From positions 186,001 through 250,000 of the forward strand of contig JALBUN010000016.1 of assembly GCA_025174535.1 (NCBI GenBank): a DNA stretch of 64,000 nucleotides, read 5' to 3'. Positions 29,669 through 57,500 of this stretch are shown here, piece by piece. Source of the stretch: Cantharellus purpuraceus. Taxonomy: Eukaryota > Basidiomycota > Agaricomycetes > Cantharellales > Hydnaceae. The notes under the pieces are model-generated. The model saw only the letters and a program-made list of their open reading frames with translations. It was not told the DNA's origin and searched no databases. Position numbers and translations under genes: made by a program. The stretch's first letter is position 1. Each line of letters starts with the position of its first letter.

Positions 29669-31916
29669 ATGCTGCTCCCTTCCACCACCTTTCTAACCTT
29701 GATCCTACATGTCCTACACACTCTCGCCTTGAATGCTGAAGGCCAGTCCGTGTTCAAGTCACAGAACGAAAAGACTTTTGGTAGTGATTACCCCCCTGTT
29801 CTTGATGACGAATTTGCTGTATGGCTGAAGGAGACCGGGATGGCTCGAGGAATGATGGGCGTTGCGATCTCTGTGACACGTAAAAGAACAGGTTGTGACG
29901 GATGGATCACCGAAACCAAAGGCTTTGGGGTGGCCGACCGCTGGGGAACCCCAGTAGACGACGAGGTGAATCGTTTTGAGACCAAGGCCTTGATTTCGCA
30001 AATGGCACATTCATGTAATTTGCAGACATTGTTCTCCATTGCATCGAACTCGAAGCTCTTCACTGCACTTGGTATCGGCTTACTCACGGTAAATGAAAGC
30101 ATCCCCATAGATTGGGACACAAAGATCAAGGACATTCTCCCTAAATCTCTCTGGGCACTTCAAGATCCAATCGCTCAAGACCAAGCGGATCTCGTAGATA
30201 TCCTCAGTCATAGAACTAGCCTGCCCCGGCATGATCTGAGTTACAGCCTAACCGATACTCCCGAAAATACCGTGAGTGGCAGCCACAACTTATCTACACC
30301 CCCGTAATGTGGATGTCTTTTAGAGAAATAACCAAACGTTCTAATAGATATCCAAGCTGCGACCATCGGCTGAATTCCGACAAACGTGAGTGATTGTAAG
30401 ATACTGGCAGCACGATACACTAGGCACTGATACTAATATTCAGTATGCAATACAACAATAGTACTTGTTGCTGATCTGTTATCATGCACTTTCTAACCTC
30501 CTCACAGTGATGTATACTTTGGGTGCTCATATCATCTCGCATGTGACAGGAACACCCTTTCAAACATATATGGTTCATAACATTATATCCCTTCTCGGTC
30601 TAAATTCGACAACATACAACCGTTATAAAGCCGAACAGGGGAGACTTGCTGATGGGTTTGTGGACACTGGGGGAGCCCAAGGGGCACGAACAAGGGATAG
30701 GAAAATAAGGTTCAAACCTATCGCTTCTCGTAACACAATAGGTGGTGACGACATAGTTGCTGGACCGGGCGGCATCATTTCGAATGCCAAAGATACGGCA
30801 CGTGTCTTGAACCACCTCTTGTTTGCGAACTCACTCAGTCTGGAGGCATTCTACTTCTGCAGGTGACGTGGTTGCAGGCGCTCCTTCTATTGGGGAGGTC
30901 TCCGGTTACAAATGACTCCGTTATTCCACCTTCTGTTGTTGAAAGAGTAACGAATGGAGTGTCAGTTTTTGTACCTCGAGCTCGAGAACCTGAAATTAGC
31001 CCTCTCGTCTATGGAATGGGTCAGATAAGATACACATATCAGGGTCATGAGGTTTGTAGTCACGCCAACGTCTTTCAGCGTACTATTTACATATGGTTAT
31101 TCTCCATTTCATGTTCTACACGGATCTCGGTTCATCTAGTTCATTGAACATAGCGGTAACACGATTGGACATTACTCAATTGTTACTCGCTCGTCGCATG
31201 ACGGTCTCGGAATTTCTGTGCCCACCAACTCGATGGCCGATCCGGCATTTCTAGAACTGATTAAGTGGAGAGTCATTGAGAAGTCGCTGGGACTAAAGCA
31301 TATTGACTGGAATGCACGGTAGGCCTATATATATCGCAGGTCTTTGCTGAGCTGGTGTAGGTATCCCATACAGGAGGAACTCAGCAATGCCACCGAAGGC
31401 TATCCACGTCCTTCAGATGGAACTCCAACAACGCTACCTCACCATGAACTGGCTGGTGTATATTTCAACCCTGCATACGGGACACTTACTCTATGTCCTT
31501 ACCCTCCGTCCAAGCCATTTGAACCAACACGCAGAGAATGCGATGGTGTTGTCTCAGAAGCACTTCAGCCGCTATTGAACCAATCTACACCCACACTGCT
31601 TGCAGCCTGGTCCAAACCATTGTCCACGCATGTGCTGCTTTACCATGTCTCTGGCGACATATTTGACGTCACAACGGTATTGACGTTCCCCGCACCATTC
31701 CCTGACGCATCGAGAAGCGACGATGATAGCCATCCTTTTGCGGTGCCAGCTAGAAGAGCTTCCGCAGATATCGTCTTTGGTACGCGTGCAGGGGAAGACA
31801 CGAAGTATGTAGAAGGTATGGCATTGGGGGGATTGTGGGGTGCTGGATTTGATGCCAAAGAGTCAAAGGGGGGCGGTAGGGAAGGAGCGGAAGTCTGGTT
31901 TGACCGAGTGGCCTGA
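29669..31916 (+). CDS. Secreted beta-lactamase-like (class C/S12) serine hydrolase, copy B
   Basis: Eight exons in phase: 29669-29965, 30026-30271, 30348-30385, 30444-30460, 30508-30797, 30863-31051, 31140-31318 and 31361-31916; 603 residues. A signal peptide (MLLPSTTFLTLILHVLHTLA) starts it. Motifs of the penicillin-binding/class C fold are present: SxxK as SNSK (106-109), YxN as YNN (197-199) and HxG as HSG (363-365). The family covers esterases, peptidases and LACTB-like proteins, so the substrate is unknown and true beta-lactam hydrolysis is unlikely. The intron after exon 5 has a GC donor (GCACGT). Exon 3 lacks three codons present in A and C. The first intron is a multiple of three without a stop, so retention would keep the frame. 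Confidence 0.83.
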
Positions 31917-38688: not shown

Positions 38689-39802
38689 CTGATCAATAAA
38701 TATTGACAACCACAGCCTCTCAGGGCACTATTTTCCATGGAGATCATCACCTGAGATGTGGCTATCCATGGCTGTCCAAACCAGTGCAGAAAACAGGGTG
38801 GACACCCTTCTTTTTGCCTGATCAGTGCCTAGTTCAGGGATCAAATCAGCTGATGGGTGATCAAATCAGGTGATTGCCTTGGAATATTCTACCCCTTTCC
38901 ATAACATTCTAGCTGTTTCCTTCTATTATTAGATAGAACTTTCCAGAACCATTATTCAGCTCCTGATCAGTGTTAGTCCAGTGATCAGAACCTGTGATTG
39001 GCTTGGAATATTCTACCCCTTTCTTCCACATTCCACAACCTTCCAGTAGCTTCCATCTATTAATAGGTAGAATATTCCAGAACCATTACTCAGCCCCTGT
39101 AAATACAATATATAAGGAGGCCATTCTGCCTCTGAAATAAACATATCCATCATATTCTACCCATCTTCTGCACATCAGTGTGACTAGAGTGACATACAGT
39201 GTCATCCTCTATCTCAGTAACTGTTGATTACCAGTTCAAGGATCTTTTACAGTTGTGTAACTGTACTTGATTGCACTCGAAGTAGTGATATTCCTGCTTA
39301 TCTGCCTCACGTGACTACAAATCTACAGGGTGAGATTGTCTGTTGATAGTCCTGCCATTAGTGCTCTTGTTTAAGTTACTAGTGTGTACTGCCTTTGCAG
39401 AGCATTAGAAGCTTGAACTTGTGTGAAGCAGTTGCTAGACTACTTCACACATTGCTGTTACCCGCTTCTGAGTGCCACTGGTTGGACGGTTGGATTCATC
39501 CGCCTACTTCCTTTAGCCTCTAAGTGCATTCCCATTTTTTCAGAATATCTGGACCCCTAAGCGTCCGTGAACTCTAGACTCTGGAAGTCTTATTCATTTC
39601 TTGCTGCTAAGAAATGTATTACCTTTCTGCGTATAGTCTGCATTGACCAATACAAAGGATTGTAACCAAAGTACAAATGTTAAATTGTTTCTGGAGTTGT
39701 GCTGCAGCAGGGTTTGATATTCTTCTCAGCTGTTCATTCACGGAATTGTGGTGATTTAGAGTTTGCCCTAACACCATAATTTTGCGGGTTCCAAAACACA
39801 TA
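38689..39802 (+). repeat. LTR-like repeat sequence continuing from the left inverted repeat
   Basis: No coding sequence. It has two imperfect copies of a unit of about 125 bp (around 38875-38995 and 39000-39105, both with TTGGAATATTCTACCCC), then a TATA-like TATAAGG at 39111 and AATAAA soon after, a layout typical of an LTR promoter region. It ends where the G1 5' LTR begins. Confidence 0.5.
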
Positions 39803-40317
39803 TGTTATGACTATATTCATTAACGTCCAGATCCCCATCTGATCCACTCAGATCCCCACGCATATGAAATCTATACTCCATTTGGAAACTGCCATCTCCA
39901 TCTACCTGTCCGATTGTCACCGCTCATTCCGCCCATCTGTCTCCGGTTCCGATTGATGCATCAGCATCACCATAGGAACCTGGACGTCCATCCCCATTGG
40001 ACTCGGACATACTCATGTAAGGCCGTCGGCCTCGGGGACCCATCACCGGAGTAATTATTATTAGATTTCAAAATATGTATTTAAGTTGCCCGACTGGGGA
40101 CTTCATTCCCCAGTTTGAATATCAAATCACACCTAGTTCCTAAGTCCGATCCTAACTCTCTAAGTTGTACTCCATCTCTGAAATCTCAGACACCGGTATT
40201 AGTGAGGGCGCAGCACATAAGCTGAAGCCAAGTCCGTTCCGACCCCCACGACGTACTCTGACTCTGACCAAAACTCCAACCCAATCTCTGACTCCCAATC
40301 GGACCTAGTGCATAACA
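39803..40317 (+). repeat. G1 5' LTR
   Basis: 515 bp, TG...CA ends, with TATTTAAG at 40078 and an inferred transcript start near 40112. Confidence 0.85.
40078..40122 (+). promoter_or_regulatory. G1 promoter: TATA box and inferred transcript start
   Basis: TATTTAAG at 40078-40085; 34 bp after its first base is AGTTTGAATAT (40112-40122), which nearly complements the putative primer-binding site. The start site is inferred, not observed. Confidence 0.45.
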
Positions 40318-40319
40318 GT

Positions 40320-40330
40320 ATATTTGAACT
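40320..40330 (+). other. G1 putative self-priming primer-binding site
   Basis: ATATTTGAACT lies 2 nt after the 5' LTR. It pairs with AGTTTGAATAT at the inferred mRNA 5' end at 9 of 11 positions. The two mismatches are adjacent and fit decay of one ancestral CpG on opposite strands. No match to a tRNA 3' end (TGG start) is visible. Confidence 0.45.
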
Positions 40331-40349
40331 GCCATACTCACTCCTACCA

Positions 40350-40401
40350 ATGCCACGATCCACTGCCAATTCTGAATGCGCATGAACCGTTGAGGTGCCT
40401 G
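40350..40401 (+). pseudogene. G1 gag, first codons upstream of the G2 insertion
   Basis: ATG at 40350 opens a frame that, with G2 and one GCCTG copy removed, runs into the G1 gag at 46830. Codon 12 (40383-40385) is TGA. Confidence 0.55.
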
Positions 40402-40763
40402 TGTCAGGGTTCAAATAAGTCATATTCTATTTTTAGTATTTTCTCTTGACACCCCTATCAGCACAGCCTGTCAGGGTGCATCTCCCCTATTTCATTGCCC
40501 CTATCACTTCCCCTATCTTTCCTCCCCTATCTTGGTTCTCCTATCCGTCTCCATCATTTAGTATAAAGACTTGCCTTGGTGCAGTGTGATCCCCTCAGCT
40601 TGATCTCTGAGGATATCCGCTGTACCAGGTAAGTCCCATGTATTTATCAGAAACAGCTGTATAGACTGAGGATATCCGCTGTACCAGCTGGCATTATTTC
40701 TTATCGGCTCTCACTTATTGAGTATCTTGTTGTTGTGGCCTCGTCATCAGCATCGCCCTCACA
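40402..40763 (+). repeat. G2 5' LTR
   Basis: 362 bp, preceded by GCCTG. It contains a tandem repeat of the segment TGAGGATATCCGCTGTACCAG. Confidence 0.9.
40562..40606 (+). promoter_or_regulatory. G2 promoter: TATA box and inferred transcript start
   Basis: TATAAAG at 40562-40568; 35 bp after its first base is AGCTTGATCT (40597-40606), the exact complement of the primer-binding site at 40766-40775. Confidence 0.5.
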
Positions 40764-40765
40764 GA

Positions 40766-40775
40766 AGATCAAGCT
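40766..40775 (+). other. G2 self-priming primer-binding site
   Basis: AGATCAAGCT lies 2 nt after the 5' LTR and is the exact reverse complement of AGCTTGATCT at the inferred mRNA 5' end. This is the arrangement known from Tf1/sushi-type elements, which prime reverse transcription from their own RNA end. Confidence 0.55.
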
Positions 40776-40831
40776 CATAAGACGACCCCACACCTCATAA
40801 CACTTTCCCTATTAACTACTTCACCGATACC

Positions 40832-41974
40832 ATGACCGATCAGCTCCCTGAAGCCTACTGGGACACTCTAGGTGAAAGTGGTGGCTTTCTGCGAGCGTTG
40901 TTCAACACCCAGGCGCAGCAGCTCCAGCAGCTGCAACTCCAGAACCAGCACCTCCAAAGCCAGTTCACCAATGTCCAGAACAACCTAGCAGATGCTGCCA
41001 CTGCTGCTGCCATCGCTGCAGCACAGACCATCTCCCAGACCACCTCATTTCCCACACCTTCTCCTACATCGTCATCCGTTCGCCCAATAAGGGCAGCTGA
41101 ACCAGCCAAATTCAATGGAGATCGTGCAGAGACGGAAGGTTTCATTCGCTCTATCAGGCTTGCCATTGCAGTCCAGCCTACATCTTTCCCAGATGAGCGG
41201 ACCAAGATCCTCTATGCCCTCTCTTTTATGACAGGAGGTTCTGCTGAAGTATGGGCGCACAATGAGACACAGGCAGTCATTGACAGGACCTCACCGCTCT
41301 CCACCTTGGAGGAATTCATTAAGCAAGTGGAGAACGCTTTTGGGGACCCTGACCGCTCTCGAACAGCACGAACAAAGCTACACGATCTTAGGATGACACC
41401 TGGCATGTCAGCGGATGAATACACGGCACAGTTTGAGATACTAGCAGGAAGGACTGGGTTTAATGATGCAGCACTGGAAGATGCCTATGCCCGAGGGCTC
41501 CCTGCAATGATTCTTGACAAGATCCATGCACAGCCATCCCTCCCGTCCAATCTCAAGGCATGGAAGGAAGCGGCCTGTCAAATTGACTGCAACCACCGTC
41601 ATCTTCTAGAAGTGAGACGTGCTCAGACTTCCCTCACTCCTGCCCGCTCTACCCCATCCCACCCTCACAGCACTCCGGTCATCTCTGTACCAACTACCTT
41701 GGCAACCTCTAATGGTGCTGCACCTATGGATATTGACTCCAACCGCCATCGCATTGAGACTCAGACGTGCTATAACTGTGGAAAGCGTGGCCATATATCC
41801 CCAGCATGCCCTGAACCACGCAAGGAACGTATCCAAGCTGATCTCACACAAACAGCAATTGCAGGCATGATATCAGAGTCAGTAGCAGCTGCACTGAAGG
41901 CCAAGGAAGAAGCGCAGAAGGCAGTAATTCCAAAGCAAGAGGAGAAGCAGGATTTTCAGGCCAGTCAGCAGTGA
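40832..41974 (+). CDS. G2 Gag
   Basis: 380 residues, intact. Glutamine-rich start (QAQQLQQLQLQNQHLQ), a capsid-like region (FIRSIRLAIAVQPTSFPDE, ALSFMTGGSAEVWAHN), and one CCHC zinc knuckle, CYNCGKRGHISPAC, at about residues 313-326. Gag packages the element RNA. The following pol frame overlaps its end in the -1 frame, as in G1. It is the only full-length canonical protein left in G2. Confidence 0.85.
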   Translation: MTDQLPEAYWDTLGESGGFLRALFNTQAQQLQQLQLQNQHLQSQFTNVQNNLADAATAAAIAAAQTISQTTSFPTPSPTSSSVRPIRAAEPAKFNGDRAETEGFIRSIRLAIAVQPTSFPDERTKILYALSFMTGGSAEVWAHNETQAVIDRTSPLSTLEEFIKQVENAFGDPDRSRTARTKLHDLRMTPGMSADEYTAQFEILAGRTGFNDAALEDAYARGLPAMILDKIHAQPSLPSNLKAWKEAACQIDCNHRHLLEVRRAQTSLTPARSTPSHPHSTPVISVPTTLATSNGAAPMDIDSNRHRIETQTCYNCGKRGHISPACPEPRKERIQADLTQTAIAGMISESVAAALKAKEEAQKAVIPKQEEKQDFQASQQ

Positions 41975-44900
41975 AGAGCATGCCCTGCCTGACAAACCGG
42001 TTTTCAGTTCTTGAATCATGTACTGTAGGGCTCACAAGCGATATGTTACATGCACACTCCCTTGTCCATCAGACTGAAACCAAAACAGCCATGCCTGAAA
42101 CCCCTTCTCAACTTCCAGCTAAACATGATGACCCTCCTCGTCTCTACCTTCGATCTGCAGACATCCGTCGATGTACAAGAATTCCCATGAAAATCCATTC
42201 GGTAGACACTGGATACCCTCTAGCCGTGGATGCACTCCTCGATAGTGGTGCTACAGGAATGTTCATTGATGCAGAATATGTCAAAGCAGAGAAACTTCGA
42301 ACACGCCCTCTACCACGTGCCATACCTGTTTATAACATTGATGGGACCCCAAATGAAGCAGGTTCAATCAAGGAAGAAGTCGATCTCATCTGCACATATG
42401 GGACCCATACCGAACGTGCCACATTTTCAGTCACAAGCCTGGGAACCTTTGGCATAATTGTTGGGCACACCTGGCTTGTGAAGCACAACCCAGAGGTAGA
42501 CTGGCGTACAGGAAAGGTACAGATGACTCGCTGCCCTGATTCATGTGGAGAAGTACCAGAACACAAAGAGCATTCGCTTGGTACAACTCCTTCAAATGGC
42601 AAGAACTCACACGGGCAACCCCAATACGAGGGAGACTGAACATTTGTTATCTTTGTAGAAGAAGACTTGGAGAATATCTATGCTGGTTCAACAGTTTCTC
42701 AACAGCTCGCACAGAAGGCTGCAGAATCTACTCCAGTCAAAACCTTTGAGGAGATTGTCCCAAAGGCGTACTGGGGATTTAAGGATGTTTTTGCAAAGGA
42801 GTCCTTTGACCAACTTCCACCTCGAAAACTGTGGGACCACGCTATTGAACTCACTCCAGGAGCGCAACCCTTCAGCACAAAGGTCTATCCAATGTCCCCA
42901 AATGAGCAGAAGGAGTTGGACGCATTCCTTGAGGAGAACCTACGGAATCATCGTATATGTCCTTCCAAGTCACCCATGGCATCCCCTGTCTTTTTTGTGA
43001 AGAAGAAGGACGGTAATCTTCGTTTTGTGCAAGACTACTGCAAGCTGAATGATATCACAATCAAGAACGCCTACCCACTACCCCTGGTACCAGACATCAT
43101 GAATAAAATTGCTGCAGCCAATGCCAAGTACTTTACCAAGCTTGACATCCGATGGGGATATAACAATGTGCGTATTAAAGAGGGCGATGAGTGGAAGGCA
43201 GCCTTTCGAACCAATCGTGGTCTATTTGAACCCCTGGTCATGTTCTTTGGTCTCACAAACAGCCCAGCAACCTTTCAGACAATGATGAATGGCATTTTCA
43301 AGGAGCTCATTGATGATGGCACTATGGTAGTGTTCATGGACAACATCCTCATTTTCACTGAATCCCTAGGACAACACCACACGATCGTGCAATCTGTCCT
43401 TGAAATTCTTCGGGCCAACCACCTGTACCTCAAACCAGAGAAATGCCTTTTCTCGCAACAGAAGGTAGATTATCTTGGATTGATTCTCTCACAGGGACAG
43501 GTAGCTATGGACCCAGTTAAGGTGGCCGGAGTCAGGGACTGGCCCACACCACGCAATGTGACAGAAGTCAAATCCTTCCTGGGTTTCATCAATTTCTATC
43601 GTTGCTTCATTGAGGACTTCTCACATATCGCAAAGCCTCTGAATCGGTTAACAAAGGCAGATACACAGTGGTCTTGGATACCTGATGGCCCAGAACAAGA
43701 AGCCTTTGATAAACTCAAGCAGCTTGTCACGTCAACTCCAATCCTTGTCCTCCCAGATCAAACCAAGCATTTTCAACTAGAGACAGATGCTTCAGCATAT
43801 GCAACAGGTGCTGTTCTATCTCAACTCTGTGACGATGAGAAATGGAGGCCGGTAGGTTTTGTATCCAAGAGCCTTTCAGATGCAGAGCACAACTATGCCA
43901 TCCATGATAAGGAATTGCTCTCAGTCATCCGTGGACTAGAAGAATGGCGCCACATCTTGGAAGGGACCAAATACAAGATTGAAATCCTTAACGACCATCA
44001 AAACCTCACATATTTCCGTACAGCTCAGAATCTCAATCGTCGACAAGCTCGCTGGTCACTATACCTTTCTCGTTTTGACTTTGAATTGATCCACCGTCCT
44101 GGACGACATTCAGCCAAACCTGATGCCCTCTCACGACGTGTAGATCATAAGCGGGGGGAGGAAGATAACCAGAACCAGGTTCTTCTTGGCCCTGAGCTGT
44201 TCCACATCGATGCGACATCCACCTATCCAGGGCCAGAAGCTCAAATGATCACAGGAGAAGGAGACATATTCCTGGAACGTGTGCGGAACTGCACCAACAG
44301 AGATGAAAAGGTTGTAAAGGCTCTTAAGGAACTTGGTCCCTCTCGGAATTTACGAGGACAGGAATGGACCGAGGAGAATGGACTCGTCCTCTATCGTGGC
44401 AAGGTATATGTCCCTCTTGACCCAAAATTGCGCCATGACATTGTAAGGGCACACCACGATACTCACATTACAGGTCACCCTGGTCGCTGGAGAACAACAG
44501 AACTTGTATCCCACAGCTACTGGTGGCCTGGATTTGGACGATACATTGCCAAATACATCAAGGGATGTGACCTCTGCAATCGGACAAAAACTTTCCCTGC
44601 TCCTCCTATGGGTAAACTCCTGCCTAATCGTGTCCCAGATCGGAGGTGGCAAGTGATATCTGTTGACCTTATTGTAGAACTACCCATCAGCCATGGCTAT
44701 GATGCACTCCTTGTCGTTGTGGACCGTCTTTCCAAATGAGCACATGTTATCCCTACCACCTCTGACATCAACTCCATAGGAGTTGCACGACTTTTCCGAG
44801 ACCATGTGTGGAAACACCACGGCCTTCCTGAGGAGATCATCAGTGACCGTGGCACCCAGTTTGTCTCTCAATTTATGCGCGAGTAAGCTTCTGGGGATCA

Positions 44901-45865
44901 GGGTTGCAGCATCCACAGCATATCATCCACAAACCGATGGTCAGACGGAAAGGGTCAATCAAGAAATTGAACAATACTTGAGGCTTTTCGTCAATCAGCG
45001 CCAGGATGACTGGATTGAGTGGGTTCCTCTTGCCGAATTCACATACAACAACCGCATCCACTCCTCCACGCAATCAACCCCCTTCATGCTTGATATAGGC
45101 CAACACCCAAGGCTTGGGCTAGAGCCAATCCGAGAGACACGACTTGAAGCACTGGAAGAATTCACTGAGCGTATGGAGACGGCCACCACTGAGGCTCGCT
45201 CTGCCCTGGAAAAGGCAGCAGATGATATGGCATGATTCTATGATGCCCATCGGCAAGCAGCCCCAGTATACAAACTTGGTGACAAGGTCTGGCTCAATGC
45301 ACAAAATATCACCACCACCCGTCCAACCAAGAAACTTGATCACAAATGGTTAGGACCGTATGTGATTAATAAGGTGGTCTCACGAAATGCCTATGGCCTA
45401 CGACTTCCCCCAATCTTTGGCCGCACTCATCCAGTGTTCTCTGTTGTCTTACTCCGTCCTTATGAAAAGGATCCCATCCCTGAACGCCAGTCATCTCCTC
45501 CACCACCTCCAGTCATTCGAGATGGAGTACAGGAATACGAAGTTGAGAAGATCCTTGACAGCAGAGTTTTCCGAGGAAGACTGGAATACCTGGTGCGTTG
45601 GAAGGGCTATGGAGCTGCTGACGACCTCTGGATCCCAGCTAAGGATGCCAGTGGGGCTAGAAGGCGCATTGCAGACTTCCATCGGGAAAATCCTGAAGCC
45701 CCAAGGCATATTTCGGCAGCCACCTATGCAGCTCTTCCCTTCAGACGCTTTGAGAACTTCACAGAACCTCCCAAACAGGTCCTCTTTGATTGGACAGCTG
45801 GCAGGAACCCAACACGTGGTATTGGACACATTTCAGAGCCGCAGAATAGGCACAGTGAAGCTTAG
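41971..45865 (+). pseudogene. G2 Pol: protease, RT, RNase H, integrase, chromodomain
   Basis: Protease with LLDSGATGMFID; RT with FVKKKDGNLRFVQDYCKLN and FMDN in place of Y/FMDD; RNase H (LETDASAYATGAVLSQ); integrase with an HHCC zinc site (ending GCDLCNRTK), VVVDRLSK, ISDRGTQF and HPQTDGQTERVN; chromodomain EYEVEKILDSRVFRGRLEYL to KGYGAADDLW. Breaks: TGA at 42637, 44737 and 45233, each where the family has Arg, and a small deletion with frameshift near 44884. The Asp-to-Asn change in the RT active site would by itself kill polymerase activity. Confidence 0.85.
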
Positions 45866-45971
45866 TGCTCACCAAATTCATCCATGCCGAAATTCCACTA
45901 ACTGTATATAAGCCAGTGAATCCACTTCCCCTTCCTCAGTAAAACCATCATCGTTCACTACCCAACCCACC

Positions 45972-46409
45972 ATGCCTTACCAGTCTGAATCCACCCCTCT
46001 ACGCTCACTCCATTCCTACCCATCAATCACTTGGTCAGTTGACTCAAGGGATACTGCACGTGCTGTAGAGGATTATAACCTCCCATCTCCACCTCCACAA
46101 GTTCATTTCCCCTTCTGGCATCGTAATCCATCCAGACGCCAGACATACTACATCGGGGACCCTCTATTCATCGGCAACTATGACATACCATACGCCTTCC
46201 AAGGGCTCGCCGGTAAAGTCACCTATGAGGGAGGGGAGATGATACTTGGGGCAGTTTTCAGCACGAACAATCCCATATCCCCTGGAGAGTTCACCATCCC
46301 ACTTTACCCCAAGGCAGAGAAGAGTCACCATCAACACTCGTCATGGGCTCTACTTTGGCAGAGAGTGAGAAGGGACCTTGCAGAGTGCTTCAGGGTGTGT
46401 CTCTCTTGA
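45972..46409 (+). CDS. G2 extra sense ORF between pol and 3' LTR, unknown
   Basis: An intact 145-codon ATG frame in a good context (caccATGc), 106 bp after the end of pol. It is rich in Pro, Ser, Tyr and His, with PQVHFPFWHRNPSRRQTYYI and FQGLAGKVTYEGGEM. No membrane segment or signal peptide is seen, so it is not an envelope-like protein. No family recognised. An extra frame at this place is known in several LTR elements, but its role here is unknown. Confidence 0.55.
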   Translation: MPYQSESTPLRSLHSYPSITWSVDSRDTARAVEDYNLPSPPPQVHFPFWHRNPSRRQTYYIGDPLFIGNYDIPYAFQGLAGKVTYEGGEMILGAVFSTNNPISPGEFTIPLYPKAEKSHHQHSSWALLWQRVRRDLAECFRVCLS

Positions 46410-46462
46410 GATGAATGGGACGATAGTGCATATCAAGACGACATGCATTAAGAGGGAGGTGA

Positions 46463-46824
46463 TGTCAGGGTTCAAATAAGTCATATTCTATTTTTAGTAT
46501 TTTCTCTTGACACCCCTATCAGCACAGCCTGTCAGGGTGCATCTCCCCTATTTCATTGCCCCTATCACTTCCCCTATCTTTCCTCCCCTATCTTGGTTCT
46601 CCTATCCATCTCCATCATTTAGTATAAAGACTTGCCTTGGTGCAGTGTGATCCCCTCAGCTTGATCTCTGAGGATATCCGCTGTACCAGGTAAGTCCCAT
46701 GTATTTATCAGAAACAGCTGTATAGACTGAGGATATCCGCTGTACCAGCTGGCATTATTTCTTATCGGCTCTCACTTATTGAGTATCTTGTTGTTGTGGC
46801 CTCGTCATCAGCGTCGCCCTCACA
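46463..46824 (+). repeat. G2 3' LTR
   Basis: 362 bp, followed by the target duplication GCCTG. It differs from the 5' LTR at about two positions, both G/A changes at a CpG site. Confidence 0.9.
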
Positions 46825-46829
46825 GCCTG

Positions 46830-47920
46830 CTCCCAGCATTGACACCATCCCCGAGGTTGTCGAAGAACCGACGGACTACATAGAGGCTGTCAATGAAGAA
46901 GACGACACCCCGCCCTCTCCAAATCTGGCACAAGCCATCTCCCTGCTTGCCAGCAGCATCCGTAACCCACAAGCTCCTAAGTCCTGGACCAAGGTCCAAG
47001 AACCCAACCCATTCAATGGCTCCAATCCACGAAAGCTCCAGCCATTCTTGGTGCAATGCTGGTTGAATTTCCACAACCGCCCTGATGTGTTCACATCCAA
47101 TTGGGTGAAGGTCACCTTTGCCATGTCCTATCTCAAGGGCACCGCACTGGACTATTTTGAGCCAGCACTCATGGACGACTCTGATGACCCGATATGGTCA
47201 GAGGACTACTCTGACTTCATCTCCAAATTTCGGACCAATTTCGGACCTTACAACCCCGAGGCCAATGCCGAGAATGAACTCAATCAACTTCGAATGAAGG
47301 AAAATCACAAAATCACAAAATACATTGTGAGTTTCCAGCAGCTAGCCCCAAAAGTCCAATGGGGCAACACCACACTCCGATGCCAATTTTACATTGGACT
47401 CCCATCCTGCATCAAGGACGAGATATCACGCATCGGTAAGCCGGATACTTTGGTTAACCTCTGCAAACTCGCCCAATCCATTGACACCCATTATTGGGAA
47501 TGTCAATCTGAGGTCTCCCGCAAAAATTTGGCTAACAACAAATCGGACAAATCATCGGACAAGACCCCAAAGTCCAACAAGGGGTCCGATAAGAGGACCA
47601 CCGCCAACTCAGGCCAGAAGTCAAACACTGGTAACGCTGCCGCTTCCGGTTCCGGTCAGAATAACTCCGGAACCAGCAATAACTCTGGAGCTCGCAAGAG
47701 TACTCCAGACCTCTCCACCAAGCTGGGGAAGGATGGAAAACTTACCCAGCAGGAATGCCAGTGCCGCATGGACAACAACCTCTGTCTGTTCTGCGGAAAG
47801 CCTGGCCACCAAGCCAAGGATTGCAACAAGGCAACCTTGTCCGCAGCAAAGGCAAAGGGCCGTGCCGCCAACGCCACAACAGACAAGTCCAACGCAAAAG
47901 CGACGGACCCAAAAAAATAG
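46830..47920 (+). pseudogene. G1 Gag, main part
   Basis: An open frame of about 364 codons after the G2 insertion point. It has a capsid-like region (LKGTALDYFEPALMDD, FRTNFGPYNPEANAENELNQ), a long Ser/Asn/Lys-rich linker and a CCHC knuckle, CLFCGKPGHQAKDC. It lost its start region to G2 and has a TGA in the separated 5' piece, so it cannot make normal Gag. pol overlaps it in the -1 frame. Confidence 0.85.
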
Positions 47921-50900
47921 TAAGCAGTCCTATGGCCTCCGTACGGGCTGAGGGCTGCATTGGTACTCCCTGTACAACAAACGAGGTCTGCCTGAATGCA
48001 TCCACTCTTTCCCACTCCAACTCCCTTACCCTCCTCGTCTACTCCAACTCCATTCCCGATACCGCTATTCAAGCATTAATTGAGTCTGGTTCTACTCACT
48101 GTTTCCTTGATTCCTCTTTTTCTGATTTACATAAACTCCATACATACACCATAACTCCAATATCACTCCAATTATTTGATGGCACTACTAATGCTGTTAT
48201 TTCACAAGCTATAGATCTGTCTATCCGTTTTTCTGTCAGAGAAATCCAGAACCTTACATTCTATGTTACTCCGCTTGACTCCAGCTGTTCTGTGGTTCTT
48301 GGACATAACTGGCTCACCCGCTACAATCCGTTGATTGACTGGGCATTGGGCCATATCACATTCTGTTCTCCAGTACAGGCTGTGTCATCCCCAACGTCAC
48401 CAGCAACTTTAGGTGCAAAACTATCTTCCACCTCCACTGACTCCGCTCCGATAGATACTCCGTCTGCCCCACCGTTTATATCACTGGTGGACACTATGGT
48501 CTTTGCCAGACTAAGCAAACTGGATGGCTCTCACACATTCCAGGTCCACCTCTCCGATCCAATATTCCTCGCTGCTCGTTCCACCTGATCAACTCCACCG
48601 GACCTATCTATGGTTCCTAAGGAGTATCATGAGTTTGCTGACGTGTTCAGCAAGTCTAAAGCCGACTCCCTAGCAGAACACTGACCATACGATCTCAAGA
48701 TCGAACTGGATGACAACTCCACCCCTCCGCTTGGCCCTATCTACTCACTATCCCAAAAAGAGCTACTGGCTCTCCAAACATTCATAGATGAGAACTTGGC
48801 CACAGGCTTCATCCGCCCATCCCTATCTCCCCATGGAGCTCCAGTCCTATTTGTCCACAAAAAGGATGGATCACTCCGTCTATGCATCGACTTCCATGGA
48901 CTCAACAAGATCACCAAGAAAGACCGATACCCAATACCCCGCACCGCAGACCTACTTGAAAGTCCTTGAAAGGCTAAGATCTATTCCAAAATAGATCTCC
49001 GACATGCCTACCATCTAGTCCACATCTGAGAAGGCAACGAATGGAAAATGACCTTCCACACATGATATGGATCTTTCGAGTGGTGCGTCATGCCCTTCAG
49101 ACTAACCAATGCTCCGGCCGCCTTCCAGAGGTTCATGAATGATACCTTCGCCAACCTCCTTGATGTGACTGTCCTCATTTACTTAGATGACATTTTGGTA
49201 TATTCAGACAATGAGGAAGAACATCGGACACATGTCCGAGAGGTACTCCGATGTCTCCAAAAACATGGCCTCTTCGCCCACACTGACAAATGCGAATTCC
49301 ACTCCAACTCGGTCGAATACCTAGGCTATATCCTCTCCCCAGCAGGATTGACAATGTCCAACAACAAAATCAAAGCCATACAGGAATGGCCAGAACCCTG
49401 GAAAGTCAAGGACATACAGTCCTTCCTAGGGTTCACCAACTTCTACCGCCGCTTCATTCATGGCTACTCCGATATCACCGTTCTGCTCACCCAACTCACT
49501 AGGAAGGGTATCCAATGGAATTTCACTGACGAATGTAGACAGAGCTTTGAGACCTTGAAAAAGGCTTTTACTTCCACTCCGATACTGACTCATTGGGTTC
49601 CAGACGTTCCTATCCTATTAGAGACCAATGCCTCTGACTATGCACTTGCCGCGATCCTGTCCATCATCTCTCCGGACGATGGACAAGTCCATCTGATCCC
49701 TTTTCACTCGCATACATTTACACCCCCCGAACTGAACTATGATGTCCATGACAAAGAGCTCCTTGCCATATATGAAGGCTTCCAGATATGGAGACACTAC
49801 CTTGAAGGCCCCTCTGATCTGGTGGACGTCATAACTGACCACAAGAACTTGGAATACTTCTCCACAACAAAACTGCTCACCCAGAGACAAGTCCGATGGT
49901 CCTAATACTTATCTCAGTTCAATCTCATTATCCGTTTCTGTCCAGGTTGACTCGGAGCAAAGCCTGACACTTTAACTAGACAATGGGATGTCTACCCTAA
50001 AGAGGGGAATAGTGACTATGCCACTGTAAACCCACACAACTTTTGTCCTGTGTTTACTGCTGGCATTGTCCCTATGAGCATCCACCCTCATGACTCCCAC
50101 CCTCCGAGCTGTCACCATTATGGACATCAACCAACTCTGCTCCAACATCTGCTCATCACTCCAATCCGATCCTGTTGCAGTTATACACTTGGGCAACCCT
50201 TCTGATCCGAAATGGTCACTTGACCCCGAAGGACACCTCCTACACAACAACTGGATATACGTCCCTGATGCCAATGGTCTCTGACTCCGAGTTTTGCAGT
50301 ATTACCATGATCACCTGATCTTGGGCCACTTCGGGCAAAATCGCACACAAGGATTAATCCGACGGGACTACGTATGGCCTAAAATGCGAGAATACATTCA
50401 ACACTACTGTAACTCCTGCACCACGTGTATGCACTCAAAATCGCAAAGGCACAAACCCTATAGAACGCTTAAGCAACTTCCAGTCCTGGAGCAACCATGG
50501 AACTCCATCTCCATGGATTTCATAGAGAAGCTCCCCCCATCGCTCAGATACGACACCATACTCGTGATTGTCGACAGGTTCACTAAACAGTCACTATTCA
50601 TTCCAATGCATGAAACTTCACTTCACCTCTGGATACCATCCTGAAGGAGACGGACAAACGGAACGAATGAATCAGTCCCTGGAACAATATCTCCAAGTCT
50701 ATTGTAACTATCAACAAGACAACTGGGCTGATCTACTTCCAATAGCAGGGTTTGTCTACAACAACACTCTGAACGCGACTACTGGCATCTCTCCGTTCTT
50801 TGCTAATAAAGGCTATCATCCGAACATCTCCGTCCACCCTGAGAGAGAACTTGCCTCCACCAAAGCCCACCAATTTGTAACCGACCTTGATCAACTACAC

Positions 50901-51449
50901 CAACATCTCCAAGAAACCATCTCCGATGCCCAGAAACAATGTCAAGTCTCCACAGACCAATGCCGCATTCCAGCTCTGGACCTGCAAATCGGAGACAAAG
51001 TATTTGTTAAGGCCGAACACTTCCGGACCACCCGCCCATCAAAGAAACTCTCCGAGAAATACTTAGGTCCTTATGAGGTCATTGCTCGTGCAGGCAGCAG
51101 GTCCTTCACCCTCTGCCTCCTGGACCACTTCTGAGCAGTTCATCTGGTCTTCCATATATCAATGCTCAAACCCACTACCACGAACGAGATCTCTGGTTGC
51201 ACACAACCTCCACCTCCCCCGACCATCATCAAAGGAGACAATGAATATGAGATATCTGAGATCCTGGACTTGAAGATTGACCGTCGACACAAGTGCAAGC
51301 TCCAGTACCTAGTTAAATGGACTGGATACGAAGGCACCAATGAAGAGTCTTCATGGATCTCCGCGTCCGAACTCGATCATGCATCCAAATCCATCTCCGA
51401 CTTTCACTCCGCTTATCCAGACAAACCTGGCCCTCTTATGAATCTTTAA
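47921..51449 (+). pseudogene. G1 Pol: protease, RT, RNase H, integrase, chromodomain
   Basis: Protease reads ALIESGSTHCFLD, with Glu where retropepsins have the catalytic Asp. RT keeps VLIYLDDILVY; RNase H and integrase (VIVDRFTK, GYHPEGDGQTERMNQ) are recognisable; the end is a chromodomain (EYEISEILDLKIDRR to VKWTGYEG). In-frame stops: TGA at 48586, 48682, 48967, 49027, 49063, 49948, 50282 and 51132, and TAA at 49903. A frameshift lies between 49950 and 50090. Near 50606-50620 the integrase core jumps from FIPMHE to KLHFTSGYHP, losing the segment with the second catalytic Asp. Confidence 0.85.
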
Positions 51450-51604
51450 GTTCAATTACTAATGCTAATTCTATTATTTTGCATCATCATTTTATTACAA
51501 GTCACAAGGGAAATTACCAGCCTGCCCAAAAAACTCCGAAGGAATATCACTCCGACTCATTTTTCTCCGCTCCGAAAATTATAATCATTTTCATTTTTTT
51601 ATTT

Positions 51605-53302
51605 TTATACATTGCGTTTCCTTTTTCCCTTCCCCTTATCTACCTCAGGCTCCATCTCCGACTCATCATCACTCTCTACATCCGACACCCAATCTTTCTC
51701 ATCCCCCATGTCCAAATCCTCATCCAAATGGGCCATGAACTTCCACAACCGACGTAACTCAGCTGTCCACCGACCCTCCAGAACCTCCTTCCGTTTCATC
51801 GTCTTCACCAAGTCCACTAGCAACCCCTCCGTCCGCCGGAGGTGCTCCGACTGAAGGTTAACCAGCTGGATAAGCTGGCCCATGGTACTATTGGGCACAG
51901 AGACATGCCCCGTACCTGCACCAGTCGTTGCCCCTTCCGATCCAACACCGCTACCCCCGGCTGCCACAGCACCTGTCTCCGTCCACCGCTTTTTGGTTGG
52001 ATGACCTTCCGATTCTTTCTCTGCCCCTCCTTGTACCACTAGTTGGGGCTTGATGCTCTGACTCTGGGGATTGAACTTTCCATCAATCCTACACCCTCCT
52101 TTCTGACCCTGACAACGATTGCAGGACCGAAGGTGGTGAGTTGGGCTGGTAGGCCACACGCACTCCATGCCCACATCACGACACAAGTCGCAAGTTATGC
52201 TGGGCCCACCAAATGGCTCCGCTGGAGCCAGAGCCTTGGGTGGTCTGCCCCTTCTCGCTGCGGCCTCCAAGTGTTCCCTCTCCTCCTCCTTGTCCTGCTG
52301 TTCTGCCACTGCCTTCTCCATCTCACGCTTGTGAAGCTGGATTGCCAACCTCACAACACACAGCTCCTTCTTATGGGTCACCAACACGTGACTCTCTGCC
52401 TTGCACCATATGACCCTCCGATCTGCCTCCCGCTTCTCCGTATCAGCACTTGGGTACACCTTCAATGAAAAGACCGTGACGTCAAGATTCTTCTTAGTGG
52501 TAGCGGCATAGAGCTCCACTCTTTTGCAAGCCTCAACCGCGGCTACCCAAGCCATCTCCTCATAACAATTTGAAGTTGGATCCGGCTCTGCATCCGTCCC
52601 AACATCCACACCCGCCTCAGGCTCCGCATTTGCGTTGAGCCCCATGTTGGCATCAGGATCCACCTCCACCTCCGCCCTCTCCACCTCCGCCACTTCATCT
52701 TCCTCAGCCACACCCAACCCAAATAATGGCCGTACCCATGGACATAACAGCGAGTCCTCCGCAGTGACAGTTTTCGGACGAGTTGTCTCTGTCCGTGTAA
52801 CAGAGATGATGGCAACTTCAGGGGTCCCTGTCCATATAGGCACACTTGGACTTCCTGGACTGGTTGCCCCTGCCCTGGTCACCTCCTCCTCTACCTCCAT
52901 GGTGGCTTCTAGCTCGTGCGCCTGCTCCTCCACTTCCTTCAGTCTTGTGGCTTCCATCACGGCCACAAGTTCCTTGACCCTGCGGGCTCTCTCGGCCTTT
53001 GCTTCCTCCTCTTTCCTTCTCCATTCCATCTCCACCGCCTCTTTCCGCCTCTGCTCTTCCTCCTCCTTCCATCTCCATTCTGCCTCCTCCTCCTCCTTCC
53101 ATCTCCGTTCCACCTCCTCCTCCTCCTTCCGTCTCCATTCCACCTCCTCCTCCTCCTTCCATCTCTGTTCTGCTTCCTCCTCCTCTTTCTGTTTCCACTC
53201 CTCTTCCTCTTCCTTTCGTCGGGCCAAGAGCAATTGCTCAAGCTCGGCCACGCTCATGCTTGCCAAAGGGTTTGACATCGTTGAGGATAAGACCTCAATC
53301 AT
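51605..53302 (-). CDS. Antisense ORF of G1: coiled-coil, Zn(II)2Cys6-type protein
   Basis: An uninterrupted antisense frame of 565 residues from the first ATG at 53302 (an alternative ATG at 53278 begins MSNPLASMSVAELEQLL). It lies between the chromodomain and the 3' LTR. The N-terminal third is a charged coiled coil built partly of 10-residue repeats such as EWRRKEEEEV (30-bp units, about 53060-53195). Near 52085-52200 it encodes CDLCRDVGMEC and CNRCQGQKGGC, two CX2CX6C halves separated by 12 residues, the spacing of a Zn(II)2Cys6 cluster. The C-terminus is acidic and ends in the basic string KGKGKRKRN, a possible nuclear signal. It stays open while sense pol has nine stops. A DNA-binding regulatory role is inference. 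Confidence 0.65.
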   Translation of the reverse strand: MIEVLSSTMSNPLASMSVAELEQLLLARRKEEEEEWKQKEEEEAEQRWKEEEEVEWRRKEEEEVERRWKEEEEAEWRWKEEEEQRRKEAVEMEWRRKEEEAKAERARRVKELVAVMEATRLKEVEEQAHELEATMEVEEEVTRAGATSPGSPSVPIWTGTPEVAIISVTRTETTRPKTVTAEDSLLCPWVRPLFGLGVAEEDEVAEVERAEVEVDPDANMGLNANAEPEAGVDVGTDAEPDPTSNCYEEMAWVAAVEACKRVELYAATTKKNLDVTVFSLKVYPSADTEKREADRRVIWCKAESHVLVTHKKELCVVRLAIQLHKREMEKAVAEQQDKEEEREHLEAAARRGRPPKALAPAEPFGGPSITCDLCRDVGMECVWPTSPTHHLRSCNRCQGQKGGCRIDGKFNPQSQSIKPQLVVQGGAEKESEGHPTKKRWTETGAVAAGGSGVGSEGATTGAGTGHVSVPNSTMGQLIQLVNLQSEHLRRTEGLLVDLVKTMKRKEVLEGRWTAELRRLWKFMAHLDEDLDMGDEKDWVSDVESDDESEMEPEVDKGKGKRKRNV

Positions 53303-53419
53303 GCCCCTCCTTTTATATGTCTCCCAACCCCCAGTATAACTCCGACTGCACCCCACCGTCTCACCTATTCAATCCGCAGACATGAGGCCTCAGGGGCTTG
53401 GCCTTAAATGGAGAGATAC

Positions 53420-53947
53420 TGTTATGACTATATTCATTAATGACCAGATCCCCATCTGATCCACTCAGATCCCCGTGCATATGAAATCTATACTCCATTT
53501 GGAAACCACCATGTCTCCATCTACCTGTCTGATTGTCACCGCCGATTCCACCCATCCATGTCTGGTTCTGATTGATGCATCACCATCACCATCGGAACCC
53601 GGACATCCGTCCCCATCGGACTTGGACATACTCATGTAAGGCCATCGGCCTTGGAGACCCATCACCAGAGTAATTTTATTAGATTTCAAAATATGTATTT
53701 AAGTTGCCCGACTGGGGACTTCATTCCCCAGTTTGAATATTGAATCACGCCTAGTTCCTAAGCCTGATCCTAACTCTCTAAGTTGTACTCCGTCTCTGAA
53801 ATCTTGGACACCGGTATTAGTGAGGGCACAGCACATAAGCTGAAGCCAAGTCTGTTCCGACCCCCATGACATTCTCCGACTCCGACTCAACCTCTGACCC
53901 AACCTCCGACCCAATCTCCAACTCCCAATTGGACCTAGTGCATAACA
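53420..53947 (+). repeat. G1 3' LTR
   Basis: 528 bp, directly repeated with respect to the 5' LTR. The element-side flank AAATGGAGAGATAC is a weak polypurine tract. Its outer edge abuts the right 297-bp inverted repeat exactly. Confidence 0.85.
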
Positions 53948-54244
53948 AGACATCTGAGCTTGAATTCAGGCTGAATGCCTGGTCCAAAGGTGGAGAGCTG
54001 GCTGGGTGAAGGTTTGTAGGCGCCTATGGGTCCACAACTGTAGCACAGCAGAAATAAATCATTCTGGGCCAAGTTCTGCATGGAATATTCCTGAAAAAAA
54101 TATGGAAAAATAGAGAATATTTGAATAAGTCCATTCCAGGTACAGGCACCAAATATATGCTGATATTTAGGAATGGAAAAGCAAAGTATAGCACATTGGT
54201 GCTGCATAAATAGGATTTGATAGGGAAAAGGTGGTTCCCATACA
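53948..54244 (-). repeat. 297-bp inverted repeat, right copy
   Basis: Reverse complement of 38392-38688. Its inner edge is exactly the end of the G1 3' LTR and its outer edge abuts the Copia pol remnant. Confidence 0.85.
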
Positions 54245-54371
54245 GAAGTTATGGCAATACTGCACTACCAATGACAATCTCACTGATGTATTCACCAAGT
54301 CACTGCCACAACCAAAGCATGAAGACCTAGTCACTCGAGTTGGCATATGCAAGGTTGAGGGGGAGTGTTGA
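54243..54371 (+). pseudogene. Copia RNase H C-terminus remnant
   Basis: The frame reads TNDNLTDVFTKSLPQPKHED, then a stop overlapping the right LTR. This is the typical end of Copia polyproteins (D-x-FTK-x-LP). Confidence 0.75.
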
Positions 54372-54532
54372 GTGTTGAGGATCACTGAGAGACCATGACA
54401 ACCTCAGCCTGCATCAGACCAATGGCCACAATGGTTGCTTGGAACATGCACTGGATTACTATATAGAGATCTTTATGTTTACTATAAGTACATGCATATT
54501 AGAATACACAATAATATTGTACTATCTCTATA
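54366..54532 (+). repeat. Copia 3' LTR
   Basis: 167 bp starting TGTTGAGTGTTGAGG, preceded by the polypurine tract GAGGGGGAG and followed by the target duplication ATAAC. Confidence 0.8.
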
Positions 54533-54537
54533 ATAAC

Positions 54538-57500
54538 AAAGCTCTCACACACAGAGACGCTCTAGTCAAGGAGAAGAGGGGTGCTACTAGGGTTTGAAGA
54601 GGATAACTGTGCACATCCACAGGACAAGGGTTGGAAAAGGTGTCTCAATGCTGTTGTAAATTGTGTGTATAAGCTTATTCTGTCCCCACCAACATACGTG
54701 ACCACTCATTCATCTCTCATCACAAGCTCCATATCACATTCCAAATACTATGCTTCATCCAATCACCAGTCACAAGGCTAGATCATATTATCATCGCCTA
54801 CACAAACAACTGCCCGTATGATATATCCCTGCATATGGTCAGGAGTTATGGATCCATATGCCAAGTCTTTTATCTTTGTAACTAGCTATTTAATTTTATC
54901 TCCTATTTCTCGTTCATGTTGATTATCACCCCCTCTACGTCTAATATCACCTGATCCTCATATCCAATCCTCATCGCTTTTATATCTCCTATTCCCTGAT
55001 CATATACAAAACACAGTCTATTTTCTATTCTATTTTACTCATGTGATATAGATACTTCATGTATGATCCAGATGCCAAGATCATTTTCACATGTATAAGT
55101 ATACGTATATGTATTTCTCTAGCCAATCCGAGTTATTGTACTCACTGACTACATTTGTCTCATTGCAAATCCAGTTATATACTGGTACACTCGCTCTCGT
55201 TCTATCTTCTACTTAATCTTACAACAGATGCTACAGAGTAACTGCAGTTTATGCCAGCTGTCCAAACAAAGAGGGCCAGTGGAAATGAAGTGAACATTGA
55301 TGTAATAGAGGTGCATGTAAAGCTGCAGTGAGATTAGTACGAGTTCTCTTGTATGGAACATCACATTAGTATTATGGATTCATGCACAAAACACCCTGCA
55401 ATTAAAATGTCTATTTGGGCTGGAAAACTCACGTTTCTAAAGTCGCCCTCATAGAAGGTGGTGCTTGGTGCTCGTTGGCAAAGGGCGGGGCGGTTTAGCG
55501 CTTACTGAATGCGCGAACATGACGCGTGTATTGAAAGGCTAACGCGGAGGGGCGTCAATTGCGAAGGAGAAGACTCTACTTGGATTGTAAGAAAGGATAC
55601 CAGCTATATTACATTTTTGTGAGACAAGGCGAAAAACTTCTCCGTTTTCAGTAGGAGTTATTCCCGCTCTTTTGCCTATACGCGTTCATCAACCACGCGT
55701 AGGCTCGATACCCCTACAGCGTGAATCTCGTGAACTAATCAGTACTGGTTAGTATTCGTTGCTTTCTAGACGCGTGGAAGCCCGCATTCCGAAGTGATCC
55801 TCGAAGGGCGACCTGTAAGCAAGATTCTGGCCAAAAGGGCTTGCATTGCGCGGATTGTGTTCGAATGCGTGCACGCCGAGTATAGCAGCGATGCGTGCGG
55901 GCTGGAGACTACGAAACGCTCCTGTCATAATGCTCATGGTTAACTCGCTCGAGATCGTCTAAGAAAGCGTTCAGAATTTCGGACTCCTACTCCCTTTTGA
56001 GTATCGAGGATTGATATCGTACGCGTTGAGTACCGATCAGGTGAACCGAGTGGCCCGTGACGTGCTGGATGTATGTACATTGTACATGTTTATCATTAAC
56101 AATTACAGTTATGGATTGCATTTGACCATCCGACTAGATTCCGACGACAGGTTACGGCAAATACACCAGGCCTGGTTACCGGTCCGCTAGAGAGTACGCA
56201 TCACGTGTGCCAAGCCAGGCACCTCCCGAGAACACGGTCTACAAGCTGACTCGCGGTGGCATAGCATGACTCTATGGAAGAGCTGAATATTTGAGCCGCG
56301 CCTCAACCTCACTTTCGAATCGTCATGTCACATTGTGAAAGGAAGAGTGGGTTCAGACCCGTTTCCACGTGTTGAGCTGTACGTGCATATGCTTTATGGA
56401 TTCTGTTGTTAGACCTGGCACTATAAAACCCTACCTGAAGCAACGTCCTAAATGAAGAGCGGGTCCACAAAACACAATCGGAACGAACACATCCGAAATA
56501 TTTTCGGCGTTACCAATCATGATGAGAACATCCTGTCACCGGCTTGTGGAAGCCATACCTATGCAATGATCTCCTGGTATTGAAAAAAGTACTCGAGCCC
56601 TGTAGCGTGAGGTGGAATGTCGGGGCTTCAAGCGATTGTAGTATAGACTTGCAAGCTGTAAGTTGGAAGCGCTGGATGGCAGTCAGATCAGGGAGTGCAA
56701 TTCGGAAAGGGGTAACGGGAGCTGGTGCGTGAAGGTTATGTGCTTCGGACAAGTAATGGGTGACCACAAGAGAAGAAGTTTTACAATACATTGGCCAAAA
56801 GTATGACCACCGGCGTCGAGTGAAGAGCTTGAATCTGCTTACGGACAGGATTATGAAAATGAACGGTCAAGGATTGGGAATGAGGTGGCATCCGCAAATA
56901 ACAGTTATGGGCACAACATCATACACGCACAAATCCAAATTGGGGAATGTGTGTCAACCACATTGTCGCTGTCATGCACACGATTCAAGAGGTAGCGGTG
57001 GGCATACAAGAGAGGTACAAATTTTGTAAGATGAATGCCATGGTGGGATTCTCATGCTCATTTGTTAATCCAGATGTACTTGATGGTTATCAGCTTCGTT
57101 TGAGGCATTTTGAAAGATGTTGGGGGTATAACCTGGAAAACTGACAGTGGAAGTCGGAAAGCGAATGAGCCCAGAAAGCAAAAGATCGTCAACCGATGGT
57201 ATGGAGCAGAGACTGGGGGAGAAAGGTTTCAGAGGGTTTGCTTGAGCAGGGAGATGACAGATATGGTGTTTAACAATTGAGGTAAGGAACTAGGAAGTAA
57301 GACCTGGGATTGTGGTCAAAGTGGGGTTAGGTAGATGTTGATGAGACATTTCAAAGCAGAAGCCGATATCACCTGTCGACCGTGCTTGAAAGAAGAATTG
57401 CTCGTGTGCACCATGGAGGAGATGGCATGGATGCGGGACTCGGGATCATTCCCACAATGTAGTTGCTGCAAAAGACGTTCATTGGGGAATGGGCATATCA

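Follow-up and report, generated by a model that had tools for sequence, protein, structure and literature searches.

An Antisense Gene between pol and the 3′ Long Terminal Repeat of a Cantharellus purpuraceus Chromovirus Family Evolved under Protein-Level Selection and Encodes a Putative Coiled-Coil, Zinc-Cluster-Like Protein

We analyzed a stretch of 64,000 nucleotides of Cantharellus purpuraceus DNA (GenBank assembly GCA_025174535.1, contig JALBUN010000016.1, positions 186,001 to 250,000; here called the window, and all coordinates are positions in it) that contains an old, decayed Ty3/gypsy chromovirus, G1. On the strand opposite to gag-pol, between the chromodomain that ends pol and the 3′ long terminal repeat (LTR), this element carries a long open reading frame (ORF). 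The frame is almost certainly a real gene of the element that evolved under protein-level selection, and during the active life of the elements selection preserved the protein as strongly as gag and pol. We lean toward reading it as an antisense accessory gene of a high-copy chromovirus, with a coiled-coil, nucleic-acid-binding product that would tune the element cycle.

51605..53302, minus strand: putative antisense accessory gene of 565 codons, or slightly fewer if translation begins, as is likely, at Met9 (53278)

Translation of this interval gave 565 residues with zero stops, as an earlier note on the same DNA had claimed, and the frame does lie where that note placed it, between the chromodomain (51162 to 51449; PF00385) and the 3′ LTR (from 53420). 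In 1,000 draws from a composition-matched first-order chain over the 1,973-base interval, the longest stop-free run averaged 182 codons, had a maximum of 410, and never reached 565; together with the frame controls described below, this rules out a chance open frame.

Selection was gauged by pairwise Nei-Gojobori ratios of nonsynonymous to synonymous change (dN/dS) over residues 101 to 565, the Glu-rich N-terminal 100 residues being left out. Pairs with fewer than 60 shared codons were dropped (the threshold was 300 for depth bins, 150 for gene slopes, and 15 for segments), as were rows shorter than 80 to 100 nucleotides (nt) when matches were chained. Initially, place, stops, and dN/dS were counted in copies ranked by the score of the frame or of a homologue; as this choice is biased, the counts were repeated with 12 loci chosen by integrase (20 drawn at random from 135 places, of which the first 12 were fetched). 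The antisense frame had a dN/dS of 0.313 in the first set (bootstrap, 0.293 to 0.339; 28 copies, 378 pairs) and 0.363 in the integrase-chosen set (0.321 to 0.412; 11 copies, 55 pairs). Both values are well below neutral, whereas the earlier note had named a ratio near 1 as the outcome that would speak against its proposal. With CpG changes masked, the ratio was 0.25. The known genes of the element, treated identically, gave 0.306 for gag, 0.262 for reverse transcriptase (RT), 0.306 for integrase (INT), 0.430 for protease (PR), and 0.219 for the chromodomain. Pseudo-frames of the LTRs gave 0.59 to 0.71, which puts the neutral ratio for this pattern of mutation closer to 0.65 than to 1.

The other frames behaved differently. 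Four of the other five had a dN/dS of 0.81 to 1.06 in the first set and 0.76 to 0.90 in the integrase-chosen set, the two of these on the same strand giving 0.92 and 0.81. Stops numbered 1.1 to 1.2 per 1,000 codons in the antisense frame, compared with 38 to 46 in the other same-strand frames and 13 to 29 on the opposite strand. When pairs were binned by depth into fifths, the dN/dS of the frame dropped from 0.45 in the closest to 0.27 in the deepest, with a regression slope of 0.14, which is the pattern expected if selection acted on the active lineage before insertion and decay was free afterward. Pairwise distances in the frame tracked those of gag, RT, and INT (r, 0.48 to 0.52) and, less closely, those of the LTR (0.25); for each, 0 of 500 permutations were as high.

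The gene is repeated many times in its own 40.15-Mb genome, where the antisense protein found at least 105 matching rows, counted as 77 places including the window (the row counts for this protein are lower bounds). Places other than the window were 78 to 87% identical to the antisense protein in the main stretch, and 36 of the 77 were stop-free there, although some of these 36 had stops in an N-terminal row apart from it. With a distant homologue as the query, the same genome gave at least 113 matching rows. There was no sign of a second family of this gene in the genome, as distant-homologue queries led to places at 37 to 46% identity with no distinct closer set among the 113 of 708 and 88 of 909 candidates scored. 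The number of Glu-rich repeats (53004 to 53214; period of 30 nt) seems to change from copy to copy, and the lengths of the open frames around the matches vary.

In all 20 of the 10-kb loci fetched by rank of the frame itself, two of which (L015 and L017) are close duplicates, the sequence was antisense, stood beside a chromodomain, and had an LTR beyond the frame start. Antisense sequence followed the chromodomain region in 11 of the 12 integrase-chosen loci, with at least 399 of 465 codons present in 6, partial sequence in 5, and none in 1. Across the two sets, which were chosen in different ways, place and orientation were fixed in 31 of 32 loci. The earlier note had looked for homologues at the same place in related elements, and these were found in both sets; its proposal of an antisense, LTR-proximal, protein-coding gene borne by the element is upheld by this position together with the low dN/dS. 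At the locus that lacked the gene, L047, the integrase-chosen place was followed by LTR sequence only, and this is a possible deletion derivative.

The same note had contrasted a frame that is open with a pol that is dead. The nine pol stops are there, seven in the first frame and one in each of the next two, and eight of the nine are TGA; the count omits 50027, 50075, and 50642, which fall in one frame or another according to the placement of the frameshifts. The contrast, however, is due to few CGA codons. In-frame stops, mostly TGA, occurred at 1.1 to 1.3 per 1,000 codons in the antisense frame and at 1.6 to 7.1 in the gag-pol pieces; CGA and TGA codons together came to 4.0 versus 5.9 to 18.7, and the share of TGA among them was 0.25 versus 0.19 to 0.40. 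Because CGA codons are rarer in the frame, yet have turned into TGA about as often, the openness of the frame beside a dead pol is a product of codon make-up plus CpG decay and not of protection of dead copies, and selection after insertion is ruled out as its cause. The copies decayed after insertion, largely through CpG transitions. CpG-type decay in the compared copies (L009 to L028 and L037 to L048) took the form of transitions, TGA stops, and changes of Arg to Cys, His, Trp, or Gln, which suggests methylation-driven mutation of the G1 family. Of the 14 copies that extend over the pol stop at 48586, 7 share it; each of the other eight stops was found in 1 to 5 copies.

The predicted protein has four recognizable parts.

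52871..53251, minus strand: N-terminal long helix, residues 18 to 144, with Glu-rich 10-residue repeats (tandem repeats of period 30; AlphaFold2)
52250..52564, minus strand: predicted helical hairpin, residues 247 to 351 (AlphaFold2; blocks with a predicted local distance difference test [pLDDT] score of 75 to 90, and 89 to 96 in homologue P0005)
52091..52192, minus strand: six-cysteine cluster CX2CX6C-X12-CX2CX6C, residues 371 to 404 (Pfam Zn_clus, below the cut-off)
51716..51886, minus strand: C-terminal helix, residues 473 to 529, with a conserved TxGQLxxLV..QSEH motif (AlphaFold2 pLDDT about 56 to 70; homologue alignment)

An AlphaFold2 model of the homologue P0005 has the same plan. The two CX2CX6C halves with 12 residues between them were read correctly from the outset (Cys 371, 374, and 381 and Cys 394, 397, and 404). 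Zn(II)2Cys6 clusters, a fungal speciality, are spaced C-X2-C-X6-C-X5-12-C-X2-C-X6-8-C, and the spacing in the antisense protein falls within this range. Five of the six cysteine sites were kept in 37 of 37 copies and the sixth in 36. The window copy has five extra cysteines, at residues 187, 246, 259, 300, and 315, of which Cys300 was kept in 36 of 36 copies; the other four were not conserved, most other copies having Arg, or Ser at 246.

Protein searches found relatives solely in Joint Genome Institute (JGI) metagenomes, in overlapping lists of 1, 12, and 22 rows (25 distinct; the last two lists hold their own query rows) among the best 7,991 to 7,997 candidates, which were those with most shared words. 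Two scans of IMG/VR found no relatives, an NCBIfam search returned nothing useful, and sequence searches of the PDB were uninformative. In an alignment of 20 of the 25 homologues, the cluster is covered by 13, and 12 of these 13 keep all six cysteines at about 33 to 41% protein identity. Conservation of the cysteines, which the earlier note had treated as decisive, is therefore seen both among copies and among distant homologues.

Assignment of the cluster to a family is less firm. The earlier note called it Zn(II)2Cys6 type; the spacing of the cysteines fits, but every Pfam Zn_clus score was below the 21-bit cut-off. Zn_clus was the most frequent weak family for the cluster fragments, and in the weak matches to it the best stretch had the two halves in swapped order in six of eight cases and in normal order in two. 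In Gal4-type clusters, the basic half comes first. The antisense protein is like the fungal Zn(II)2Cys6 proteins (PF00172) in its spacing and differs from them in scoring below the Pfam cut-off, in a half order that looks swapped in six of the eight weak matches, and in having its cluster late in the protein. Pfam reported no fungal transcription-factor middle domain for the antisense protein (P0001). We conclude that this may be a zinc-cluster-like domain, perhaps with its halves swapped, whose membership in Zn(II)2Cys6 is unproven. The protein is somewhat more likely than not to bind both zinc and nucleic acid.

Two candidate signals flank the frame.

53311..53317, minus strand: TATAAAA, candidate TATA box of the antisense gene (27 of 28 copies; 39 nt before Met9; outside the LTR)
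51491..51496, minus strand: AATAAA, candidate poly(A) signal of the antisense gene (34 of 36 copies; about 110 nt after the stop)

Met9 (53278) is ATG in 27 of 28 copies, with a gap in one, and Met16 is ATG in 28 of 28. Met1 is GTG in 2 of 28 copies and stands just 15 nt away from the TATA motif, so that Met9 or Met16 is the likelier start. In the metagenome homologues P0005, P0012, and P0021, whose predicted frame extends upstream, the start Met is preceded, at the same distance of 13 residues, by Val-Tyr-Lys, consistent with a TATA box at that point. The candidate promoter would lie outside the LTR. The earlier note had suggested that the gene could be made from the 3′ LTR; this is not borne out, as a TATA motif lies between LTR and ORF and a start in the LTR is not needed.

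We propose that the gene forms a complete unit head-on to gag-pol, with its own TATA box just interior to the 3′ LTR, translation from Met9, an ORF free of interruptions, and an AATAAA placed before the chromodomain stop. The product would begin with a coiled coil and end in a helix; between them would lie a helical hairpin and then the conserved six-cysteine cluster, with the spacing of fungal zinc clusters. It could oligomerize through its coiled coils, bind nucleic acid in the nucleus through the cluster, and tune the element's own cycle, LTR transcription first of all. Of these steps, action on element transcription is put forward only tentatively. A stronger version is that fungal chromoviruses encode a sequence-specific, antisense-expressed zinc-cluster regulator with a half-swapped Zn(II)2Cys6 domain, which binds LTR or host promoters, controls copy number or targeting, and is the source of some "host" zinc-cluster proteins; this we consider doubtful.

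Several observations weigh against the proposal. The block from the LTR edge to the start was covered by 28 of 40 copies, leaving 12 that did not cover it, and conservation of the TATA 7-mer is unexceptional in its block, with 57 of 153 7-mers as high or higher. The cluster was poorly modeled (pLDDT, 37 to 53 in the window protein and 56 to 74 in P0005), and Foldseek found no PDB match at an E value of ≤0.001, its best rows being mostly helical hairpins and coiled coils. Pfam Zn_clus did not match full-length P0001 or five homologues, nor any of four single-half fragments. Among 12 two-half fragments, 8 matched (best, 16.3 bits, against a cut-off of 21) and 4 did not, and DUF7685 and XPA_N each outscored Zn_clus once among the eight weak matches. 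The highest dN/dS of nine segments, 0.67, fell on residues 376 to 420, which hold most of the cluster; many arginine codons there vary as CpG decay would give, and the value is no gauge of the strength of selection in that segment. The gene is also missing from G2, a second chromovirus in the same window, whose interior gave no match to the antisense protein (tblastn over 39000 to 55000, matches of at least 60 residues; the sole match was the frame itself).

The main rival to a regulator is an accessory protein with a role other than transcription: it would help to assemble particles, bring the preintegration complex into the nucleus, or target integration, with the cluster serving as a protein or RNA contact. 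The long helices and helical hairpin that make up most of the models, selection equal in strength to that on gag and integrase, and the lack of an above-cut-off match to a DNA-binding family all agree with such a role. A separate antisense unit with its own motifs, however, would uncouple the protein from gag-pol levels, which would suit a regulator better, and we think this alternative rather unlikely. The antisense RNA might instead be the effector, through double-stranded RNA or interference with genomic RNA, the protein being incidental. The gene is convergent with gag-pol, and a review leaves this option open for plant elements in its treatment of them (PMC7264820). An RNA-only role would not keep amino acids, yet the cysteines persist in the distant homologues, the dN/dS of the protein frame equals that of gag-pol, and the frame is nearly free of stops while its neighbors are full of them. 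RNA as the sole effector is thus very improbable, although RNA and protein roles may coexist.

That a host zinc-cluster gene was captured once as a passenger of no use to the element accords with Zn(II)2Cys6 being a fungal speciality and with the 8 of 12 two-half fragments that lean to Zn_clus. Capture is a possible origin of the gene; the "without use" part is excluded by protein-level selection, with dN/dS falling with depth, and by a place and orientation that are constant in 31 of 32 loci, and the passenger explanation as a whole is extremely improbable. Finally, the frame could be the shadow of a sense-strand gene, as the mirror sense frame also had a low dN/dS (0.43 and 0.48). That frame, however, carries 12.6 to 14.0 stops per 1,000 codons, and RT's own mirror frame, at 0.33, shows the same kind of shadow. 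A sense-strand shadow is ruled out on these grounds, and the probability of a shadow or of a frame open by chance, given 0 of 1,000 draws, is next to nil.

Among known systems, the gene of G1 seems closest to brtn of Botrytis Boty and to the antisense accessory genes found in LTR elements of plants; in its plan it also resembles HBZ of human T-cell leukemia virus type 1 (HTLV-1). The account of brtn in Boty-like elements reportedly goes back to Zhao et al. 2011. HBZ is a bZIP protein. Boty-like elements, found in Botrytis cinerea and Sclerotinia sclerotiorum, carry brtn as an antisense gene (PMC7264820, PMC8365987, PMC4227169), and a review counts it among the genes between pol and the 3′ LTR (PMC7264820). 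As described in these sources, Boty is like G1 in being a fungal gypsy-type element with a gag-pol product ending in a CHROMO domain and an extra antisense gene. It differs in its ascomycete host; the likeness to brtn is one of description, and the passages describing it do not mention a zinc cluster.

Antisense 3′ genes of LTR elements have been described mainly from plants, and the review gives their function as unknown (PMC7264820). The plant aORF-3R genes include Grande gene23 and those of RIRE2, Retand (with a TRP28 domain), and PvRetro13 (PMC7264820, PMC11963269). Like them, the gene of G1 runs opposite to gag-pol in the interval from pol to the 3′ LTR, occurs in most copies, and is conserved like other element proteins. 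Grande gene23 has its own promoter upstream of the gene and a nuclear product (PMC7264820), and its promoter, like the candidate in G1, is outside the LTR. The Retand domain is predicted to bind DNA, and its function is given as unknown (PMC7264820, PMC11963269). As these papers present them, the plant genes differ in belonging to plant elements (Retand is not a chromovirus) and in having TRP28 or SMC domains and no six-Cys cluster. HBZ, too, lies antisense at the 3′ end of its LTR element and has a nuclear product; its promoter is inside the 3′ LTR (PMC7264820, PMC11963269).

The antisense gene of G1 shares orientation and position with HBZ. The two differ in that HTLV-1 is a retrovirus with the promoter inside the 3′ LTR and that a bZIP protein has no cysteine cluster; no homology is implied. 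The antisense arrangement between pol and the 3′ LTR is, as far as the review covers it, already known, and the "distinct strategy" of the earlier note does not survive these plant and Botrytis precedents (PMC7264820). A search of the open literature, with subscription papers such as Zhao et al. 2011 outside its scope, found no basidiomycete or zinc-cluster precedent and no chromovirus with a conserved six-Cys cluster and measured selection. Because the gene of G1 was selected at the protein level as strongly as gag-pol, has a candidate metal-binding domain, and exists in about a hundred or more copies within one compact genome, the role of antisense accessory genes for retrotransposons becomes testable. 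Annotators should also be aware that a zinc-cluster-like protein in a genome of this kind may be a transposon product.

The carrier element and the element nested within it have the following parts.

39803..40330, plus strand: G1 5′ LTR (approximate; 88% identical to the 3′ LTR by blastn; direct repeats; Kimura two-parameter distance [K2P], 0.106)
40402..46762, plus strand: nested chromovirus G2 (LTRs at 40402 to 40701 and 46463 to 46762; gag and chromodomain by Pfam)
46796..47920, plus strand: G1 gag, capsid and zinc knuckle (Pfam PF03732 and PF00098)
47932..51134, plus strand: G1 pol remnants PR, RT, and INT (three frames, about nine in-frame stops)
51162..51449, plus strand: G1 chromodomain, end of pol (Pfam PF00385, E value of 1.1e-9)
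53420..53947, plus strand: G1 3′ LTR (approximate end; repeat and blastn evidence)

G1 is a Ty3/gypsy chromovirus of about 7.8 kb without its insert, with a gag that has a zinc knuckle, the order PR-RT-INT, a chromodomain after integrase, and an LTR pair all present. Its 5′ LTR lies far upstream of the rest because the younger G2 is nested inside G1 and splits it. The G1 LTR pair differs at 51 positions, 42 of them transitions and 28 at CpG sites, and eleven further LTR pairs had K2P values of 0.031 to 0.129. The G2 LTRs have 1 difference in 300 sites. This young chromovirus has a gag, a pol frame of 690 amino acids, and a chromodomain, and its RT is about 41% identical to that of G1.

Elsewhere in the window, an ORF at 9990 to 10727 on the minus strand has a G-patch_2 domain (E value of 7.5e-21) and is probably a host gene exon. 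Another, at 29669 to 30307, matches the Beta-lactamase family PF00144 (E value of 1.2e-8) and is perhaps a host serine hydrolase.
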